The translations under genes and the position numbers were made by a program. From Myxococcaceae bacterium (lineage in GTDB: Bacteria > Myxococcota > Myxococcia > Myxococcales > Myxococcaceae): 33,848 bases of DNA. The DNA is taken from the NCBI GenBank assembly GCA_022616315.1, contig JAKEEX010000333.1:1-33848 (forward strand). Reading direction: 5' to 3'. Each line of letters begins with the position of its first letter. Position 1 is the first letter of the stretch. This document shows positions 486 to 17,971 of the stretch, piece by piece. The notes beneath the pieces were generated by a model that had not been told where the DNA came from, ran no database searches, and saw only the letters and a program-made list of their open reading frames with translations.

Positions 486-594
486 ACTCCCGGTGCGACA
501 CCCCGGGGAGGGGGGCTCCCCATCCTCCGTAAAGCCGGGATAGGGTCCTCAAGCAGACCAACCTGAAATGGCTTCGGGGCGGGGGGGAAGTGAC

Positions 595-1173
595 ATGGAC
601 AGGCTGTACACGACGCACGACATCAGTCACCTGCTGCAAGTAGACCCATCGACGGTGAGCAAGTGGATTGACCGCGGTATCCTCCTGGCGTTCCGGACGC
701 CGGGCGGGCACCGGCGGGTGAGGGCCGCGGACCTGCGCAGCTTCCTCATCTCGCACGAGATGCCGGTGCCCGAGGAGCTCGGCGGCGACGTCGTCCGGTT
801 GATGCTCCTGGACGGGGAGAAGCTGCTGCTGGAGCTCACGCGCAAGGCGTTCAAGGCCGTGGCGTCCAGCGTGGACCTGCACACCACCTCGTCCGCGGTG
901 GAAGCGCTGCTGCAGGTGGTGGACCTCAAGCCGCACGGCCTCGTGGTGGACCTGGGCCTGACGGAGCTGGACGCGCTGGAGCTGGTCCGCCGCCTGAAGG
1001 CACACAAGCCGCTGGAGAGCGTGAAGCTCGTCACCATGACGTCACGCCACACGCCCGAGGCGGTGGAGGCCTCGCTCAAGGCGGGTGCGGTGGCATGCCT
1101 GCCCAAGCCCCTGGATCCCGGAGCGCTGCTCGAGCTGTTCCGCGTGCCGCTGGCCATGCGACGCTCCGGCTGA
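595..1173 (+). CDS. HTH (MerR/excisionase-type) plus receiver-domain regulator
   Basis: A 192-residue cytoplasmic regulator. Residues 1-55 form a winged-helix DNA-binding domain of the MerR/excisionase kind (TTHDISHLLQVDPSTVSKWI, then RTPGGHRRVRAADL, the typical wing). Residues 66-185 resemble a response-regulator receiver: Asp73 in the acidic pocket, Asp119 as probable phospho-acceptor, Ser/Thr near 148-150 and Lys171 in LPKP. The usual second acidic-pocket residue is Gly-Glu shifted, so phosphorylation is likely but not certain. HTH first and receiver second is the reverse of most response regulators. I chose ATG 595 over ATG 568 because a purine-rich GGGGGGAAG site lies just upstream and the conserved domain begins at residue 4. 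No kinase is adjacent. The next gene follows after 3 bases, so the two are probably co-transcribed. Confidence 0.85.
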   Translation: MDRLYTTHDISHLLQVDPSTVSKWIDRGILLAFRTPGGHRRVRAADLRSFLISHEMPVPEELGGDVVRLMLLDGEKLLLELTRKAFKAVASSVDLHTTSSAVEALLQVVDLKPHGLVVDLGLTELDALELVRRLKAHKPLESVKLVTMTSRHTPEAVEASLKAGAVACLPKPLDPGALLELFRVPLAMRRSG

Positions 1174-1176
1174 GCC

Positions 1177-1935
1177 ATGCAGCCTCGCCCCAGGAGCTCA
1201 CCGCCCACGCGCAACCGCATCGCCGCCGTCCTCCTCGAGGCGGGGCTGGTGACGCGGGAGCAGCTGCTCACCGCGCTCCAGCAGCAGGAGCACTGGGGAG
1301 GCCGCCTCACGCGCCAGATCGAGGAGCTGGGCTACGCCACCGAGGAGGCGATGACCGCCGCGGTGGAGCGGGGCCTGCGCATCCCGCGTCTCCGCCTCGC
1401 GACGGTGACGCCCACGGCGGCGGCGCTGTCCCGCGTGGACGCGGAGCTCGCCGAGGCCCGCGGGGTGCTCCCGGTGGCCTTCCAGGACGGCGGGCGTACG
1501 CTGCTGCTCGCCATGGCGGACCCGACGGACGTGGCCACCATGGACGAGGTGGCGCGTCGCTCGCAGACGCGGGTGCAGCCTGCCGTCGTGGGGGACCGGG
1601 AGGTGGAGGCCGCCATCCTGCGCCACTACCACGGCGTGGATGCCGCGCCGGCGCCCTCTGCAGCGGGGCCCGACGGCGTGACGGAGAAGCTGGACGTCGC
1701 TCCGGACCTGCTGGGGGCCAGCGCGCGGGCGGACAGTGCCGCGAACCTGCTGGAGGAGCTGCTCACGGGCGAGGCCACGCAGCCGGGCACCCTCACGGCC
1801 GAGGAGCAGCACCGGCTCGCGCTGCTGAAGCAGAACCAGGTGCGCAGCGGTCGGGTGCTGCGTGCGCTGCTCGAGCTGCTCGTGGAGAAGGGCGTGCTGA
1901 CGCAGGCGGCGCTCGCCGCGCGTCTACGCGGGTAA
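1177..1935 (+). CDS. Stand-alone MshEN (GspE/PilB N-terminal) domain protein
   Basis: A 252-residue protein that looks like the N-terminal domain of type II secretion or type IV pilus ATPases (GspE, PilB, MshE) without any ATPase part: there is no Walker A motif. Residues 14-37 (RIAAVLLEAGLVTREQLLTA, then LQQQ) and 43-65 match the repeated 24-residue MshEN motif that binds cyclic di-GMP in MshE and PilB, although the usual Gly of RLG is Ala or Thr here. Residues 85-145 form the alpha/beta part with AMADPTDVATMDEV, typical of the family. A further motif-like segment ends the protein (about 226-250). The start is 3 bases after the stop of the HTH-receiver gene and has no strong Shine-Dalgarno site, suggesting translational coupling. 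Role unknown; a cyclic di-GMP-responsive adaptor is an inference. Confidence 0.8.
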   Translation: MQPRPRSSPPTRNRIAAVLLEAGLVTREQLLTALQQQEHWGGRLTRQIEELGYATEEAMTAAVERGLRIPRLRLATVTPTAAALSRVDAELAEARGVLPVAFQDGGRTLLLAMADPTDVATMDEVARRSQTRVQPAVVGDREVEAAILRHYHGVDAAPAPSAAGPDGVTEKLDVAPDLLGASARADSAANLLEELLTGEATQPGTLTAEEQHRLALLKQNQVRSGRVLRALLELLVEKGVLTQAALAARLRG

Positions 1936-1942
1936 TGGGACG

Positions 1943-4765
1943 TCACCCGGCATCCCGCACCACGGGACTCTCCGGCGCATCCGGCGGCCGCGACACCCAC
2001 GCCGCGATGAACAGGTCCAGCTCGCCCCGCAGCACGTCCTTGAGGCGTGGCGTCCCCGCGCCGGTGCGGGGGTCCTCCACGTGCGGCGCACGGCCCACGT
2101 GGTAGCGGCGCGCCTCGGTCACGGGCGCACCCCCGCCGGCGAGCACCACCTGGGCCACCTCCTCCAGCTCGCGCACCACCTCACCGCCGAGCAGGGAGAG
2201 CAGCCGCCCGCTGCTCTCGTCGCGAAGCGTCACCTCGCACCCCACCCGGGGCAGGAAGCTGCCCACGTGGCGGCGCACCTCGCGAGCCCCCACGACGGCA
2301 CCCACGGCAGCGTGGGGCACGGCGCGATGGACACGCACGTAGGCCCGCACCCTCGAGCTCTCGGCGATGCGCCGGTGGAGCCCGGTCTCCCCCTTGAGGA
2401 ACCCGAAGGCACCGGGCCCCGTCACCCGGAGCACCACACGCGGTGGCTGCTGGCCCTCGGCCAGGGGCACCGCCTGGTAGCCACGGCGGGCGGCCCACGC
2501 CGAGTACATCGCGGCGAGCTCCGCCAGCCACGTGGTGTCCGCCGGGGTGACGTCCGCGGTCCACAGGTCCATCAGGGCCTCGTCGTCCGCCTCCGCGGTT
2601 CCGGAGGCCACGCGGGCCTCGGCGAGCTGGATGTCCCGGGCCGCCTCCTCCACCTGCCGCGCCGCGCCCTTGAGCTGCGCCTCGCCGCGCGCCTCGCGCA
2701 CCAGCTTGCGCGCGAACTGGCAGGTGCTCGCGAGCCGGTCCAGCTCGCTGAGCTGCGCCTCCACCTGACGGAACGCGCGCAGCGTCGCGGCTGCCCTCTC
2801 CGGCGCATCCCAGAGGTCCGGCGCCTGGGTCGCCTGCAGGAGGTCCGCGCGCCGCTTCTCCAGCTCCGGCCTGTGCGCCGTGCGCGCCACCCTCTCTACC
2901 CGGCGCACCAGCGCGTCCGTCTCCTCGAGGAGGGACCGCCTGTCCAGCCTTCGCTTCACCGCGGTGGCGCGGGCGCTCGGGAGCGTGAGCTGCGCGGTGG
3001 CCTCGCGGGGCGCGAGCGGCTCGGCCACGGCCACCACGCGCCCGCCCGTCCTCGCCTCCACGCGCACCGGCGTCCCCGGCGGGAGCGGGCGCCGGGCAAT
3101 CTCCACTGCCAGCGCCGCGGTGAGCGACTTCTCGATCTCACGCTGCAGGTAGCGCGCGCCGAACTCGGGCGAGTAGCCGCGGTCCACGAGGAGGTCCAGC
3201 ACCGCGGGGGACACCTCCACGTCCAGGGCACGTGCCCGGATGCCCTCACGCTCGAGCACCCGGCCCACCTCGCGCTGGGCGATGCGGCGAATCTCCACCT
3301 TGCTGAGCGGCTGGAAGTGGCACACCGCATCGAAGCGGTTTAGGAACTCGTGGCGGAAGGCCGCGGTGATGCGGCGGTCCACCTCGTGCACCAGCTCCGC
3401 CGTGGAGCGCACGCCGGCGAAGCCCACCACCTTCTCGCGGTAGACCTCCGCGCCCACATTGGACGTGGCCACGATGAGGGTGTTGCTGCAGGAGACGGTC
3501 TCCCCGGCGGCGTTGACGAAGCGCCCCTCGTCGAACAGCTGCAGGAAGCGGTCGTGGACGCTGCGGGCCGCCTTCTCGAACTCGTCGAGCAGCAGGACGG
3601 AGAACACCTTTCCGTCCAGGAGCCGCGTCAGCTCGCCCCTCTTGGCCTCGAGCGTGGCCGCCCAGGGCGCGCCGAAGGGGAGCGCCTCGTCGCCGTCGCT
3701 CGCGTAGTCCGCCATGTTGAGGCGCACCAGCCGGTCCCCGCTGCCGAAGAGGTACTCGGCCAGGAGCTTCGCCAGGTGCGTCTTGCCCACGCCGGTGGGG
3801 CCCGCGAAGAGGAACACGCCGAGCGGCCGCCTCGGATCGTTGAGTCCGGCCTTGAGCAGGGCCACCGCGCGCAGCACCGCGGACACCGCGTCGGTCTGGC
3901 CAAGGATGCGCTCGCCGAAGAGGCGCTCCACCTCGTCGAGCTCGAGCGGCATCGCGTCGTCCACGAGGAAGCGGGGCAGGCGCGTGGCGGCGCAGAAGCG
4001 GGCGAGGACGTCCTCGGGCCCCACCCTGTCGCGGCTGGCGGCGGCCGCCTCGCTCGCCGTCTCCTGGAGGAGCTCGATGGCCTTGCGCGGCAGGCGCCGG
4101 GCCAGGAGGAACCGCGAGGAGAGCCGCAGCGCGAGGTCGCAGGCCAGCGGGTCGATGGGCAGCCGGAGCTCCCGCTCGAGCTGCTCGGCCACGCGCCCGA
4201 GGATCCACCGCGCCTTCTCCGGGGTGGGCTCGGGCACGGGGATGACGTGTAGCCGCTCGGCGAGCGCCTCGTCCGCGCGCTGCAGCTCCTGCACACGCTG
4301 CTGCTCGGCCTCGAAGATGAAGCGCAGCGCGCCGGTGCGCATGGCGCGCAGGAGCACGGGGGCAAGGGGCCCCTCGAGGCTCGCGGTCAGGTCGCGCACG
4401 TACACCACGGCGCCTGGCGCCCGCGCGAGCGACTGGAAGAGCTCCTCGAGCACCTCGGGTGCGTGGCGCTGGCCCTGCGCGAGGATGGAGAGGGCGCTCA
4501 CCTCCACGAGCCGCATGCCCGCGAGCGCCGCGTCCACGCGCCCCTCGGCGAGGCGCCGCGCCACCTCCTGGACGAGCGCGGTCTTGCCCACGCCCGGCTC
4601 TCCGGCGAGGAGCGGGTGCTTGCCCCCGCGTGCCAGGAGCGCGAGCACCTCGGTCACCACCGCGTCCGCGCCGTGGGCCTCCGGCAGGCGGCCCTCGCGC
4701 GCGAGCGCCGTGAGGTCCCGGTCGACGTATCGCTCTCCCTGCTCGGCTCCGTTCTTCCTCGCCAT
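1943..4765 (-). CDS. ClpA/ClpC-like double AAA+ ATPase fused to a degenerate release factor 2 fold
   Basis: One uninterrupted 940-residue frame. Residues 13-560 are a Clp/Hsp100 double ATPase without the Clp N-domain and without the ClpB middle domain. D1 has Walker A GEPGVGKT (55-62), but its Walker B is changed to VVYVRD (120-125, consensus hhhhDE). D2 has GPTGVGKT (322-329), LLLDE (391-395), arginine finger Arg477 and sensor-2 Arg538, so it looks active. VGF at 447-449 sits where ClpC has its ClpP-docking loop. Residues about 600-925 follow bacterial RF2 (PrfB): PDLWDAPERA (649-658), AMYSAWAARRGY (752-763), KGETGLHR (791-798), and a C-terminal tail with EDPRTGAGTPRLKDVLRGEL (897-916). SPF and GGQ are both missing. 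ATG 4765 was chosen because the AAA+ homology starts at once; the frame is open further upstream. The stop lies 7 bases from a convergent gene. Confidence 0.9.
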   Translation of the reverse strand: MARKNGAEQGERYVDRDLTALAREGRLPEAHGADAVVTEVLALLARGGKHPLLAGEPGVGKTALVQEVARRLAEGRVDAALAGMRLVEVSALSILAQGQRHAPEVLEELFQSLARAPGAVVYVRDLTASLEGPLAPVLLRAMRTGALRFIFEAEQQRVQELQRADEALAERLHVIPVPEPTPEKARWILGRVAEQLERELRLPIDPLACDLALRLSSRFLLARRLPRKAIELLQETASEAAAASRDRVGPEDVLARFCAATRLPRFLVDDAMPLELDEVERLFGERILGQTDAVSAVLRAVALLKAGLNDPRRPLGVFLFAGPTGVGKTHLAKLLAEYLFGSGDRLVRLNMADYASDGDEALPFGAPWAATLEAKRGELTRLLDGKVFSVLLLDEFEKAARSVHDRFLQLFDEGRFVNAAGETVSCSNTLIVATSNVGAEVYREKVVGFAGVRSTAELVHEVDRRITAAFRHEFLNRFDAVCHFQPLSKVEIRRIAQREVGRVLEREGIRARALDVEVSPAVLDLLVDRGYSPEFGARYLQREIEKSLTAALAVEIARRPLPPGTPVRVEARTGGRVVAVAEPLAPREATAQLTLPSARATAVKRRLDRRSLLEETDALVRRVERVARTAHRPELEKRRADLLQATQAPDLWDAPERAAATLRAFRQVEAQLSELDRLASTCQFARKLVREARGEAQLKGAARQVEEAARDIQLAEARVASGTAEADDEALMDLWTADVTPADTTWLAELAAMYSAWAARRGYQAVPLAEGQQPPRVVLRVTGPGAFGFLKGETGLHRRIAESSRVRAYVRVHRAVPHAAVGAVVGAREVRRHVGSFLPRVGCEVTLRDESSGRLLSLLGGEVVRELEEVAQVVLAGGGAPVTEARRYHVGRAPHVEDPRTGAGTPRLKDVLRGELDLFIAAWVSRPPDAPESPVVRDAG

Positions 4766-12425: not shown

Positions 12426-14633
12426 ATGAACACGCTCCAGGAGTTCTTCCAGACGTCGCCGGTGCCGCCGAACACACTGGCGCAAGGCCTGTGGTGGATC
12501 ATCGGCCTCCCGCTTCTCGGCGCCTTCGTGTGCGGCGTCTTCGGCAAGAAGCTGGGGCGCGCCAACGTGAGCCTGGTGGCCTCGGCGGCGGTGGGAGGCA
12601 GCCTCCTCATCAGCCTGCTGGCCTTCTGGGCCGTGAACGACGTGCGCACCGCGGCCACGAGCGCCTATGCCGCCCTGCGCACGCCCTACACGCTGGCGGT
12701 GGACTCCGGCACCTGGTTCGCGGTGGGGGACTTCCGCGTCAACTTCGGCCTCCAGGTGGACCACCTGACGGCCATCCTGCTCCTGGTCATCACGGGGGTG
12801 GGCTTCCTCATCCACGTGTACTCGGCCGAGTACATGTCCCACGACGACGGGTACTGGCGCTACTTCGCGTACCTGAACCTCTTCGTGGCCATGATGCTCA
12901 CGCTGGTGATGGCGGACTCGCTCGTCCTCCTCTTCGTGGGCTGGGAGGGCGTGGGACTCTGCTCGTACCTGCTCATCGGCTTCTGGTACTCGGACGCGGC
13001 CAAGGCGTGGGCGGGCCGCAAGGCGTTCATCACCAACCGCATCGGTGACTTCGCCTTCCTCATCGCTGCCTTCCTGCTGGTGACGCTGGTGGCCGCCTTC
13101 GAGAGCCAGGCCACGCGTGCCAACTTCGGCTTCCCCGGCGGGAGCCCGACGACGTTCAGCCGCGGGCTGGACGCGCAAGGGCCGCTCCACTTCGAGGCGC
13201 TCAAGACGTTCTCGCGCGCCCTCGTGACGAACCCCACGCCCGGCGGCGCGGTGGCGGCCGTCACGCCGGACACTCCAATCGCCACGGGGCCTCTCAAGGA
13301 CTTCACCTACGGCGGGGTGCTCACCGCGGTGCTGCTCCTGTTCCTGCTCGGCGCGAGCGGGAAGAGCGCCCAGCTGCCCCTCTACGTCTGGCTGCCGGAC
13401 GCCATGGCGGGCCCCACCCCCGTCTCCGCGCTCATCCACGCGGCCACCATGGTGACGGCGGGCGTGTACCTCTTCTGCAGGCTCAACTTCCTGCTCGTCT
13501 TCTCGCCCGTGGCCATGGGCACCGTGGCGGTGGTGGGGGCGCTCACCGCGCTCATCGCCGCGCTCATCGCCTTCGCGCAGGACGACATCAAGAAGGTGCT
13601 CGCCTACTCCACCGTGTCCCAGCTGGGGCTCATGTTCATGGCGGTGGGCATGGGCGTATTCTGGGCGGCCATCTTCCACCTCGTCACCCACGCCTTCTTC
13701 AAGGCCTGCCTCTTCCTCGGCGCCGGCAGCGTGATGCACGGCAACGCGGACGAGACGGACATCAAGCGGCTGGGCGGCGTGGGGCGCGAGATGAAGTGGA
13801 CGGCGGCCACCTTCGGCGTCGCCACGCTGGCCATCACCGGCGTGCTGCCCCTCTCCGGTTTCTTCTCCAAGGACGCCATCCTCCACGGCATCCACCAGAC
13901 GGAGCTCTTCGGCCTGCCCTGGGTGGGGCCCCTGGTGCTCCGGCTGGGCCAGCTCGTGGCGGTGTGCACCGCGTTCTACATGACGCGCCTCTTCGTGCTC
14001 ACCTTCTGGGGTGAGCGCAGCCCGGAGGCGAGGGCCGCCCGCGCCCACGAGAGCGGTGCCACCATGGTGGGCCCGCTGGTCGTGCTCGCCGTCCTGTCGG
14101 TGGTGGCGCTGGTGTACGGCCTGAACCTCATCAACGGCCAGCCCGTCATGGAGAACTTCCTCGGGCCCGTGTTCGAGCCGGCCCGGCGCGTCGTGTCCGC
14201 GCTCGGCACGGTGCGGGTGGAGCACGGCCCCATCGGCGTCGGAGGCTACGCACAGGCGTGGGCGCTGGCGCTGCTCGGTGCGGGCGCGGCCTGCTTCCTC
14301 TACCTGCGCTTCTATCCGACGCGTGCAGGCCAGCAGGCCCCGGCCGCGGTGGCCGCGGTGCGCCGCTTCACGCAGAACAAGTTCTACGTGGACGAGCTGT
14401 ACGAGCTCCTCTTCATCAAGCCCCTGAAGGCCCTGTCGTTCGTGTTGTACAAGGTGGTGGATGCGCTGCTCATCGACACCGTCGCGGTCCGTGGGACCGC
14501 GTGGGTGACGACGCGGGTGGGAGCGGCGCTGCGGTACGTGCAGACCGGTAACGCCCAGGCGTACGCGGCTGTCATGGCGCTCGCGCTCGTGGGCGGTGTG
14601 GCCTACGTCATCGTGAGGTTCCTGACGCCATGA
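12426..14633 (+). CDS. nuoL: NADH-quinone oxidoreductase subunit L
   Basis: A 735-residue antiporter-like subunit (ND5 homologue) at the end of the complex I membrane arm. It has many transmembrane helices, the family signature FVGWEGVGLCSYLLIGFWY with the conserved Glu, and the HAATMVTAGVYL segment around the discontinuous helix. It is longer than E. coli NuoL (613 residues). Part of the extra length is a hydrophilic loop of roughly 70 residues at about 225-295 between two membrane helices; the rest is towards the C-terminus, where the long lateral helix lies. The start follows nuoK by 51 bases, and the stop overlaps nuoM by ATGA. Confidence 0.96.
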   Translation: MNTLQEFFQTSPVPPNTLAQGLWWIIGLPLLGAFVCGVFGKKLGRANVSLVASAAVGGSLLISLLAFWAVNDVRTAATSAYAALRTPYTLAVDSGTWFAVGDFRVNFGLQVDHLTAILLLVITGVGFLIHVYSAEYMSHDDGYWRYFAYLNLFVAMMLTLVMADSLVLLFVGWEGVGLCSYLLIGFWYSDAAKAWAGRKAFITNRIGDFAFLIAAFLLVTLVAAFESQATRANFGFPGGSPTTFSRGLDAQGPLHFEALKTFSRALVTNPTPGGAVAAVTPDTPIATGPLKDFTYGGVLTAVLLLFLLGASGKSAQLPLYVWLPDAMAGPTPVSALIHAATMVTAGVYLFCRLNFLLVFSPVAMGTVAVVGALTALIAALIAFAQDDIKKVLAYSTVSQLGLMFMAVGMGVFWAAIFHLVTHAFFKACLFLGAGSVMHGNADETDIKRLGGVGREMKWTAATFGVATLAITGVLPLSGFFSKDAILHGIHQTELFGLPWVGPLVLRLGQLVAVCTAFYMTRLFVLTFWGERSPEARAARAHESGATMVGPLVVLAVLSVVALVYGLNLINGQPVMENFLGPVFEPARRVVSALGTVRVEHGPIGVGGYAQAWALALLGAGAACFLYLRFYPTRAGQQAPAAVAAVRRFTQNKFYVDELYELLFIKPLKALSFVLYKVVDALLIDTVAVRGTAWVTTRVGAALRYVQTGNAQAYAAVMALALVGGVAYVIVRFLTP

Positions 14634-16390
14634 GCTTCCTCGACACGCACCTGCTGTCGTTCATCGTCTTCCTCCCCCTGGTGTTCGCCGGCGTGCTGGC
14701 GATGCTCCCCCGGGAGGAGCACGGTGAGCTGCGCGTCTTCTCGCTGATTGCGATGCTGACGGGCGCGGCGCTGGGCGTGTACGCGTACCTCCGCTTCGAC
14801 CCCGCGGGGCCGGAGTTCCAGCTCCTCTACCGGGCGCGGTGGTTCGACGAGGCGGGCATCAGCTACCACGTGGGCGTGGACGGCATCGCCGTCTCCCTGC
14901 TCATGCTCACCGCCTTCCTCGGGCCCCTGGTGGTGCTCGCGAGCTGGAGCTTCGTCACGGAGCGGGTGAAGGAGTTCCACATCGCGCTGCTCGTCCTGCA
15001 GACGATGATGCTGGGCGCGGTGGTGAGCCTGGACCTCCTGCTCTTCTACGTCTTCTTCGAGGGGATGCTCATCCCCATGTACCTGCTGGTGGGCGTGTGG
15101 GGGAGCGAGGACCGCCAGATGGCGGCCACCAAGTTCTTCGTCTACACGCTGGGCGGCAGCCTCCTGATGCTGATTGCGCTGCTGGGCGTCTACTTCATCG
15201 CCATGCCCGCGGGCAGCCGCACCTTCGACTACGCCACCGTCTACAACGCGTTCCTCTCCGCCAACCGGGAGCTCGGCGCCTGCCGCGGGGACCCGGCTGC
15301 GTGCGCCACCTTGAGCCCTCTCGCGGTGACGCTGCGCACGTGGGGCCCGTGGATGTTCGGGGCCTGCGTGCTGGCCTACGCCATCAAGGTGCCCATGTTC
15401 CCGGTGCACACGTGGCTGCCGGACGCGCACGTGCAGGCGCCGGTTGCGGGCTCCATCATCCTCGCCGGGGTGATGCTGAAGATGGGCACCTTCGGCTTCT
15501 GGCGCTTCGCCTTCCCGCTCTTCCCCGCGGCCACCCAGGAGTTCCGCGTGGCGCTCGCGGCCATCTCGGTGGTGGGCATCGTGTACGGGGCGCTGATGTG
15601 CCTTGCCCAGCGCGACGTGAAGAAGCTGATCGCCTACTCCTCGGTGAGCCACCTGGGCTTCTGCATGCTCGGGATGCTCGCGCTGACGGTGGAGGGCGCC
15701 ACCGGCAGCGCGTACCAGATGCTCAACCACGGCGTGTCCACCGGCGCGCTGTTCCTCCTCTTCGGCTTCCTGTACGAGCGGCGCCACACCCGGCTGATGT
15801 CGGACTACGGCGGCATCGCGCGGGTGATGCCGCTCTTCACCGCGGCCTTCCTCGTGGCCACCTTCAGCTCCATCGCGGTGCCGCCCACCAACGGCTTCGT
15901 GGGGGAGTTCCTGGTGCTGCTCGGCACCTTCAAGAGTGACCTGTCGCTCGTCCTGGCGGTGCTGGCCTCCACCGGCGTCATCCTCGGTGCGGCCTACATG
16001 CTGTGGATGGTGCAGAAGGTGTTCTTCGGACAGGTGACCCACGGCGAGAACCAGGGCCTGAAGGACCTGGGCGGCCGCGAGGTGCTCACCGCGCTGCCCT
16101 TCGTGGCGCTCGTGCTCGTCATGGGCCTGAGGCCCCAGCCCTTCCTCGAGCGCCTCGAGCCCTCCGCGCGACGGCTCGTGGCCCGCGCCAACGTGGCCCG
16201 GCCGGGCGCTGCCTCACCGGACGCCGAGCTCCTCATCTCCGCGCTCCCGCTGCCCCCGGCCGGGGGCACCGTCGCAAAGAGCCCCGAGGCCCCACCGAGG
16301 CTCCCGCTCCGGCCCGCGCGGCTGGCCACTCCCCCCTCCTCCCCGTCCGGCGCGCCCGAAGGTGTCCGCGTGGCGCCCGCCTCTCCCTAA
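14630..16390 (+). CDS. nuoM: NADH-quinone oxidoreductase subunit M with Pro/Ala-rich C-terminal extension
   Basis: A 586-residue antiporter-like proton-pumping subunit (ND4 homologue). Family marks include FYVFFEGMLIPMYLLVGVWG with the key membrane Glu, FFVYTLGGSLLMLIALLG, and AYAIKVPMFPVHTWLPDAHV. The membrane core ends near residue 500, as in other NuoM proteins. About 80 further residues are hydrophilic and rich in Pro, Ala and Ser, without any recognisable domain; such a tail is unusual for NuoM. The tail is in the same frame and compatible with the GC-rich codon pattern, and the normal nuoN start comes 6 bases after the stop, so it does not look like a frameshift. Confidence 0.95.
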   Translation: MSFLDTHLLSFIVFLPLVFAGVLAMLPREEHGELRVFSLIAMLTGAALGVYAYLRFDPAGPEFQLLYRARWFDEAGISYHVGVDGIAVSLLMLTAFLGPLVVLASWSFVTERVKEFHIALLVLQTMMLGAVVSLDLLLFYVFFEGMLIPMYLLVGVWGSEDRQMAATKFFVYTLGGSLLMLIALLGVYFIAMPAGSRTFDYATVYNAFLSANRELGACRGDPAACATLSPLAVTLRTWGPWMFGACVLAYAIKVPMFPVHTWLPDAHVQAPVAGSIILAGVMLKMGTFGFWRFAFPLFPAATQEFRVALAAISVVGIVYGALMCLAQRDVKKLIAYSSVSHLGFCMLGMLALTVEGATGSAYQMLNHGVSTGALFLLFGFLYERRHTRLMSDYGGIARVMPLFTAAFLVATFSSIAVPPTNGFVGEFLVLLGTFKSDLSLVLAVLASTGVILGAAYMLWMVQKVFFGQVTHGENQGLKDLGGREVLTALPFVALVLVMGLRPQPFLERLEPSARRLVARANVARPGAASPDAELLISALPLPPAGGTVAKSPEAPPRLPLRPARLATPPSSPSGAPEGVRVAPASP

Positions 16391-16396
16391 GAAGCC

Positions 16397-17971
16397 ATGC
16401 GAGTTCCCTCGATCCCCGCGGCGGACTTCCTCCCGCTGGTCCCCGCCATCATCCTCCTCGTCGGCGCGTGCGTGCTGCTGATGACGGAGGTGTTCCTCCG
16501 CTCCCCGAGCCGCGGCTACCAGGCCCCGCTGTCCCTCTTCTTCACGGGCCTCGCCGGTGCGGTGTCGCTGAGCAGCGCCTTCGAGCCGGCGCGCCCCGTG
16601 TTCCAGGGCTTCGCGGCGCAGGACCCCTTCTCGAGCGCCGTCACCCTCGTGGTGTGCGTGGCGCTGGGCCTGGCGGTGCTCACCTCCTCGGGCTTCCTGC
16701 GCAGCCGAAACGCCGAGCGTGGCGAGTTCTACGCCCTGATGCTCTTCGCCGCCTCGGGCATGTCGCTCCTGGCGATGTCCACCGAGCTCATCACCCTCTT
16801 CATCAACATCGAGGTGCTGAGCGTGGGCACCTACGCGCTCACGAGCTACCTGCGGCGCGGGACGCGGCCGGCCGAGGCGGGCTTCAAGTACTTCATCCTC
16901 GGCGCCTTTTCCTCGGCCATCCTGCTGTACGGCGCGGCGCTGCTCTACGGCGCCACCGGCTCCACGAAGCTCTCCGAGATGGCGGTGGTGCTGCCCGCGG
17001 CGCTCGCAGCCCAGCCGGCGCTCGTCTACGCGGGGGCGCTGCTCGTCGCCGGAGGCTTCGCCTTCAAGGTGGCCGCGGTGCCCTTCCACATGTGGACGCC
17101 GGACGTGTACGAGGGCGCGCCCACGCCGGTGACGGCGCTCATGAGCGCCGGCGTGAAGGCGGCGGCCTTCGCGGCCATGATCCGGGTGTTCCTCGTGCTG
17201 GGCAAGGGGATGGACCCGAGTGTGCCGCTCGCGCTCTTCTCCGGGCTTGCCTACCTCACGATGATCGTCGGCAACCTGCTCGCGCTGCCCCAGCGCAACG
17301 TGAAGCGGATGCTGGCGTACTCGTCCATCGGCCACGCTGGCTACCTGCTGGTGGGGGTGGCGGCGCTCTTCGTGACCGCGGAGGCACCGGCCGGGGATGG
17401 CTTCCGCTTCTTCGGGGCCACACCGCTCCTGGCCCCGGGCCTGAGCGAGGTGGCGGCGCGCGCGGACGCGCTGAAGGGCCTCCTCTTCTACCTCCTCGCC
17501 TACACGGTGACGACGGTGGGCAGCTTCGGCGTCCTGGCCGCGCTCGAGCGCAGCGAGGACGAGCCCAAGGGCACCGCGTGGGACCTGGACCGCTTCGCTG
17601 GCCTCGCCCAGCGGCGCCCGGGCTGGGCCTTCGCCATGGCCGTCTTCATGCTGTCGCTCGGGGGCGTCCCGCCCACCGTCGGCTTCATGGGCAAGCTGCT
17701 CATCTTCCGCAGCGCCGTGGACACGGGCCTGGTGGGCCTCGCGGTGGTGGGCGTGCTGACGAGCGCGGCGGCCATCTACTACTACCTGCGCGTCGTCGTG
17801 GCCATGTACATGCGCCCGGCTCCCGAGGACGAGCGCATCCCGGTGACGCTGTCCTGGGGCACCGAGCTGGCGCTGGCCCTCTCCGCCCTCGCCGTGGTGG
17901 TGCTCGGCATCCTCCCCGGCACCGTGACGGACTGGCTGCAGCAGGCCAGCACCCTCTGGCTGGGGCAGTAA
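16397..17971 (+). CDS. nuoN: NADH-quinone oxidoreductase subunit N
   Basis: A 524-residue antiporter-like subunit (ND2 homologue), last gene of the block. Family features are FINIEVLSVGTYALTSYLRR with the membrane Glu, AEAGFKYFILGAFSSAILLYG, FKVAAVPFHMWTPDVYEGAP with the conserved Lys, and NVKRMLAYSSIGHAGYLLVG. Length is slightly above E. coli NuoN (485). The region 17392-17450 codes for a longer loop (EAPAGDGFRFFGATPLLAPG) between helices. A strong hairpin follows about 20 bases after the stop, so transcription probably ends here. Confidence 0.96.
   Translation: MRVPSIPAADFLPLVPAIILLVGACVLLMTEVFLRSPSRGYQAPLSLFFTGLAGAVSLSSAFEPARPVFQGFAAQDPFSSAVTLVVCVALGLAVLTSSGFLRSRNAERGEFYALMLFAASGMSLLAMSTELITLFINIEVLSVGTYALTSYLRRGTRPAEAGFKYFILGAFSSAILLYGAALLYGATGSTKLSEMAVVLPAALAAQPALVYAGALLVAGGFAFKVAAVPFHMWTPDVYEGAPTPVTALMSAGVKAAAFAAMIRVFLVLGKGMDPSVPLALFSGLAYLTMIVGNLLALPQRNVKRMLAYSSIGHAGYLLVGVAALFVTAEAPAGDGFRFFGATPLLAPGLSEVAARADALKGLLFYLLAYTVTTVGSFGVLAALERSEDEPKGTAWDLDRFAGLAQRRPGWAFAMAVFMLSLGGVPPTVGFMGKLLIFRSAVDTGLVGLAVVGVLTSAAAIYYYLRVVVAMYMRPAPEDERIPVTLSWGTELALALSALAVVVLGILPGTVTDWLQQASTLWLGQ

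Follow-up and report, generated by a model that had tools for sequence, protein, structure and literature searches.

The window, a stretch of 33,848 nucleotides from a Myxococcaceae bacterium (contig JAKEEX010000333.1), carries on its reverse strand a gene at positions 1943-4765, which starts with an ATG at 4765 and encodes 940 residues followed by a stop codon. The encoded protein is a tandem Clp-type AAA+ protein fused to a module resembling the release factor RF2 (PrfB). Two Clp/Hsp100-type AAA+ domains, D1 (residues about 14-270, positions 3956-4726) and D2 with its small domain (residues about 271-575, positions 3041-3955), precede the RF2-like module (residues about 605-930), which consists of a helical part like RF2 domain 1, the PCRF domain (residues about 605-722, positions 2600-2953), and a part like RF2 domains 2, 3 and 4 (residues about 723-930, positions 1976-2599). 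Pfam searches identified two AAA+ regions, ClpB_D2-small and PCRF, the last at residues 636-798 (2.2e-11), and NCBIfam searches ranked the ClpB and ClpA models top over residues 9-579 and matched prfB over residues 619-800 (8.8e-19). The ClpA and ClpB matches missed their curated cut-offs (287-297 bits versus near 1000-1230), and the prfB match was also far below its own. Because the RF2-like module is fused to a tandem Clp-type motor, the functional entity is an ATPase that carries a part derived from RF2 rather than a free release factor paralog. An earlier note on this DNA had described a release factor paralog turned to another ribosome job; the derivation from RF2 stood, but the note left the motor part out of account.

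Upstream of the fusion gene, on the same strand, lies a fatty-acid-hydroxylase-like gene, and downstream, on the opposite strand, lie a response-regulator/HTH gene and an MshEN-domain gene. These two downstream genes (positions 568-1935, forward strand) encode a short protein with an HTH and a response-regulator receiver and then a small MshEN-domain protein that lacks the secretion ATPase domain usually present. Three consecutive proton-antiporter genes (complex I NuoL/M/N-like) were also observed in the window at 12426-17968 (forward strand). No gene neighbour conserved across genera was found, although close genera share one upstream frame, and no operon partner is common across genera. Nor was a conserved neighbour among translation, proteolysis or hibernation factors seen at the ortholog loci.

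We examined the fold of the RF2-like module. A profile of the module matched RF2 in the PDB with an E value of 2.6e-24. AlphaFold2 modelling with 30 sequences yielded a mean pLDDT of 82.7, with helices and strands as expected for RF2, and the Foldseek matches of the model at E < 0.001 were RF2, RF1 and their relatives, the best at 3.3e-16. VIA-align superposed the model on free E. coli RF2 (1gqe) with a Z score of 22.9 at 3.9 A over 312 residues, and comparison with PrfH gave a Z score of about 10. The module contains both the PCRF domain 1 and domains 2-4 of the RF2 fold, and its relationship to RF2 is far beyond chance. In the modelled domain 3, two strands (residues 823-833 and 841-849) and a helix (residues 864-876) were present, and a shortened hairpin replaced the GGQ loop. 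Since the model matches RF2 across 312 residues, the GGQ domain is predicted to persist as a fold with a shortened tip and is not simply absent.

Alignment of the module and its orthologs with 20 RF2s of the phylum, all of which contain GVHRLVR(I/M)SPF and a GGQ loop, revealed three losses. In every aligned ortholog the SPF segment was deleted, the GGQ site was occupied by a shortened loop without Gln, and about 22 residues preceding IRSY, in the stretch that carries the switch loop in RF2, were missing. In the window protein, the place of the SPF tripeptide reads AESSRV (residues 801-806, positions 2348-2365), with SSR at residues 803-805 right after TGLHRRIAE, exactly as the earlier note had read it, and the place of the GGQ loop reads VGSFLPR (residues 834-840, positions 2246-2266), which contains the invariant Gly835 and no Gln. 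Neither SPF nor a GGQ at the GGQ site was found in any of the 66 distinct orthologous modules (0/66 for each); the sole GGQ string among them, in L109, is off-site in the linker after domain 3. The loss of both motifs proposed from the single sequence was thus upheld. The claim that the GGQ segment is shortened was borne out in part: the module is about 36 residues shorter than RF2 between the HR of GLHR and the RTG of the tail, but a large share of this shortening is the missing switch-loop stretch, and domain 3 is still predicted to fold. The exact position of the gap at the GGQ loop is uncertain, because the profile-to-PDB alignment adopts another register and is ungapped there; Gln is missing in both registers.

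The RF2-like C-terminal tail (domain 4; residues 884-926, positions 1988-2116) is strongly conserved and retained as had been claimed, with RRY...VEDPRTG...VLRGELDLFIAAW present, and the G.HR, DPRTG and V..G..D.FI.A signatures of domain 2 and the tail are kept together. Only 26 of the 119 RF2-conserved columns are retained, and the pI shifted from 5.2 in RF2 to 9.3 in the module, from acidic to basic. Trp319 of the switch loop has a role in RF2 (PMC5378476), and with the Trp319 stretch, SPF and Gln all gone, the module is predicted to be unable to terminate translation by the known RF2 route. Judged by its sequence, the module appears dead in both decoding and hydrolysis, which agrees with the earlier view that it neither reads stop codons nor releases peptides by the known mode.

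The motor part displayed a mixture of intact and degenerate motifs. Walker A is kept in both rings (GEPGVGKT in D1 and GPTGVGKT in D2), and the Walker B (LLLDE) and the EFLNRFD box of D2 are intact. The D1 Walker B is degenerate, reading YVRDL instead of FIDEI with loss of the DE pair, and is R-D in nearly all orthologs; through this motif alone the protein falls short of Walker A and B in both rings. Comparison with Clp paralogs of the same genome and with orthologs showed that the D1 pore motif K[YF]RG is lost. The GYVG motif of D2 is lost as well, and its site (residues 364-372, positions 3650-3676) contains Trp368, which is invariant and lies two residues ahead of the Tyr position, so that both aromatic pore-loop motifs of class I Clp proteins are replaced. 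Owing to this loss, the motor may remodel its substrates or pull weakly instead of threading them fully. ClpX and ClpA attach to ClpP through IGF loops, and it is the pore-1 loops that engage the substrate (PMC9035409). The [ILMV]GF tripeptide of the orthologs, VGF in the window protein (residues 447-449, positions 3419-3427), aligns exactly with SLGF in the ClpP-docking loop of ClpA; its GF is invariant in 25 aligned orthologs, with Met in the first place in some, and the ClpB-like paralog of the same genome lacks the tripeptide. By its aligned position, VGF is a putative ClpP-docking loop, and the window's genome contains two ClpP genes. Set against ClpA and two further Clp paralogs encoded in the same genome, to which it is about 30-33% identical, the fusion protein has lost or never had an N-domain. 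In another genome (G104 C1:1939161-1947612) and at similar places in relatives, several Clp-like AAA+ frames of 850-1140 residues are clustered, each about 35-38% identical to the fusion protein's motor.

We ran a protein search over 145 genomes of the order and a profile search over 195 genomes of the phylum. The module was found in 87 of the 145 genomes (counting rows with E < 1e-40, partial modules at contig ends included), of which 86 belong to the window's family (86 of its 96 genomes) and one to another family. The module and the AAA+ part usually share one frame in the carriers, nearly all of which also have a second match that scores like an ordinary RF2. An alignment-based scan of a contig collection, which rests on two peptide patterns so that relatives elsewhere are possible, detected 49 loci, nearly all myxobacterial, in Myxococcus, Corallococcus, Pyxidicoccus, Archangium, Hyalangium and Citreicoccus and in uncultured Myxococcaceae and Archangiaceae; a single-protein scan of the same collection gave no matches. 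One locus on a contig titled Comamonas sp. KCTC 72670 (L106, BNCN01000002.1) is a typical myxobacterial copy with 57% module identity, suggesting that this contig may carry a wrong label. At L047 (G109 C1:3002000-3005700), near locus base 2140, the AAA+ and RF-like parts lie in different frames, and the break falls at a GC-rich run just before the linker, as a real split or a sequencing error. At L127:9719-10909 (G087 C77), an RF-like module (48% identity) lies mid-contig without an AAA+ part, and remnants of the first residues of the gene and of the linker occur immediately upstream in different frames, a pattern like that left by an internal deletion.

Pairwise dN/dS medians over 391 pairs, which are not independent, were 0.15-0.18 for the RF part compared with 0.08-0.09 for D1 and D2, indicating that the RF part evolves faster than the AAA+ part and that purifying selection acts on the RF2-like fold, as had been supposed. 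The full-length orthologs and these ratios exclude a chance or reading-frame artefact. In the tree, the RF-like modules lie on one side of a branch with 100/100 support and all RF2s on the other; owing to the length of this branch, the point among the RF2s from which the module arose is not resolved by the tree. No relatives were detected among viral contigs, the matches listed from a plasmid collection were prfB or unannotated at about 28% identity, and PADLOC matches cover the AAA+ parts only, which disfavours a viral or plasmid origin and a known defence system.

We next considered the translation factors of the host. The window's genome contains a normal RF2 (L002), a normal RF1 (L001) and a GGQ protein that was judged ArfB-like by eye (L003), so the fusion protein is not the host's only release factor. 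The two outcomes named beforehand as refuting the repurposing, orthologs with GGQ or SPF at their sites and a genome without a normal prfB, were both absent. SmpB and a tmRNA over the cut-off were not found in the window's own draft genome. Since SmpB occurs in 138 of the 145 genomes of the order, including nearly all carriers of the fusion gene, this gap is most likely due to incompleteness of the draft, and replacement of trans-translation was dropped as an explanation. A link with the RqcH-like NFACT protein was uninformative, as nearly every genome has this protein, whether or not it carries the gene. With SmpB and the NFACT protein both nearly universal in the order, the fusion gene replaces neither pathway.

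We infer from the sequence a non-catalytic docking role for the module and binding to the ribosome. Our leading reading, held tentatively and short of probable, is that the dead RF2 serves as a docking module, blind to codons and without hydrolytic activity, that directs the Clp-type ATPase, most likely to ribosomes. A duplicated RF2 would have been fused behind D2 of a lineage-specific Clp/Hsp100 ATPase and would have lost its switch loop along with GGQ catalysis and the ability to read stop codons, and its remaining shape would serve as a non-catalytic docking domain. The target would most likely be the ribosome, at the A-site entry region and the L11 stalk, where the D2-powered ring would remodel protein bound to stalled, vacant or hibernating ribosomes; alternatively, the ribosome-bound protein would be handed to ClpP through the ClpP-type docking loop. 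The L11 stalk is contacted by domain 1 of RF2, and RF2 bound to ArfA occupies the A site with SPF unused (PMC5378476), which makes codon-blind ribosome docking the simplest use of such a module. The RF2 fold of the whole module and the presence of the losses in all orthologs alongside a dN/dS of 0.15-0.18 support docking, and both Walker A motifs, the intact D2, the [ILMV]GF position and the two ClpPs in the genome support the role of the motor. Against this reading stand the degenerate state of the D1 Walker B and of the two pore motifs and the lack of a conserved neighbour with a role in translation or proteolysis. Given the few conserved columns kept and the shift in pI, the surface with which RF2 binds may no longer exist. 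The D2 end of known Clp proteins faces ClpP, and a module on this end could hinder ClpP docking. A more specific version, a bacterial ribosome-docked extraction ATPase in which the dead RF2 holds a ClpP-linked motor at the A-site side of stalled ribosomes to extract nascent chains or blockers bound to the ribosome, is improbable.

A non-ribosomal role is nearly as likely as ribosome docking, given how few RF2-conserved residues remain, the basic charge and the attachment of the module to the D2 end. The RF2 fold would have been exapted as an adaptor or ring-stabilising domain for a non-ribosomal client, with loss of ribosome binding. The absence of the switch loop, SPF and GGQ and the opposite net charge agree with such an adaptor, as does the absence of an N-domain; client-recognition domains are common on Clp proteins. 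Yet all RF2 domains are kept together with G.HR, DPRTG and V..G..D.FI.A, which is beyond the apparent need of a mere adaptor. Rather unlikely is a block or guard of the A site, in hibernation or in protection from RF2, with the ATPase loading or removing the dead RF2 instead of unfolding clients. An RF2 fold without catalytic activity would naturally compete there, the degenerate pore motifs speak against threading, and a precedent exists in the A-site insertion by inactive factors that is proposed for other RF families (PMC6514570); however, no link to hibernation factors was seen in the neighbourhood, and nearly all orthologs retain the tripeptide of the ClpP-docking position. It is very improbable that the RF part is a functionless passenger decaying behind a working ATPase: its faster change, the frame break in G109 (L047) and the loss of the AAA+ part in G087 (L127) are outweighed by a frame that is open in dozens of species of many genera, by invariant residues throughout and by a dN/dS far below 1, which together with the ortholog alignment largely refutes decay.

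These results suggest a conserved myxobacterial gene in which a release factor was probably turned into a docking piece, perhaps for the ribosome. No description of a Clp-RF2 fusion or of a dead RF2 in myxobacteria was found in the open-access papers searched, and to that extent the combination of two known kinds of protein appears to be new. A release factor that lost both known activities and was nevertheless maintained across a bacterial family shows that a motor protein can take up the RF2 fold as one of its parts. Should the module dock a Clp motor on ribosomes, stalled translation would be coupled, directly and physically, to the unfolding or degradation of proteins. According to a review of ribosome rescue in bacteria, a step around nascent-chain extraction in bacterial quality control remains unknown (PMC8012679).

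Compared with RF2, the module has the same four-domain fold, domain order, tail sequence and PCRF domain 1, but it lacks SPF, the GGQ glutamine and the switch-loop stretch and, unlike the unfused RF2, sits behind a Clp-type motor. With ClpA and ClpC, the fusion protein shares two AAA+ rings, Walker A, the D2 Walker B, D2-small and an [ILMV]GF at the place of the ClpP-docking loop; it differs in the lack of an N-domain, the D1 Walker B and canonical pore motifs and in the addition of a C-terminal RF2 module. PrfH and ArfB, which are weaker matches in fold, have likewise lost normal stop-codon reading, but they keep GGQ and have no PCRF domain 1, the reverse of the module, which therefore falls outside their type. 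Dom34 and MRPS35, as described in PMC6514570, are likewise RF-type proteins in other use without the catalytic Gln; Dom34 is of another lineage and fold, MRPS35 is of the ArfB type, and neither is described there as fused to a Clp motor. For the proposed ribosome-docked extraction ATPase, the counterpart in kind would be Cdc48 with Vms1 and Rqc factors.
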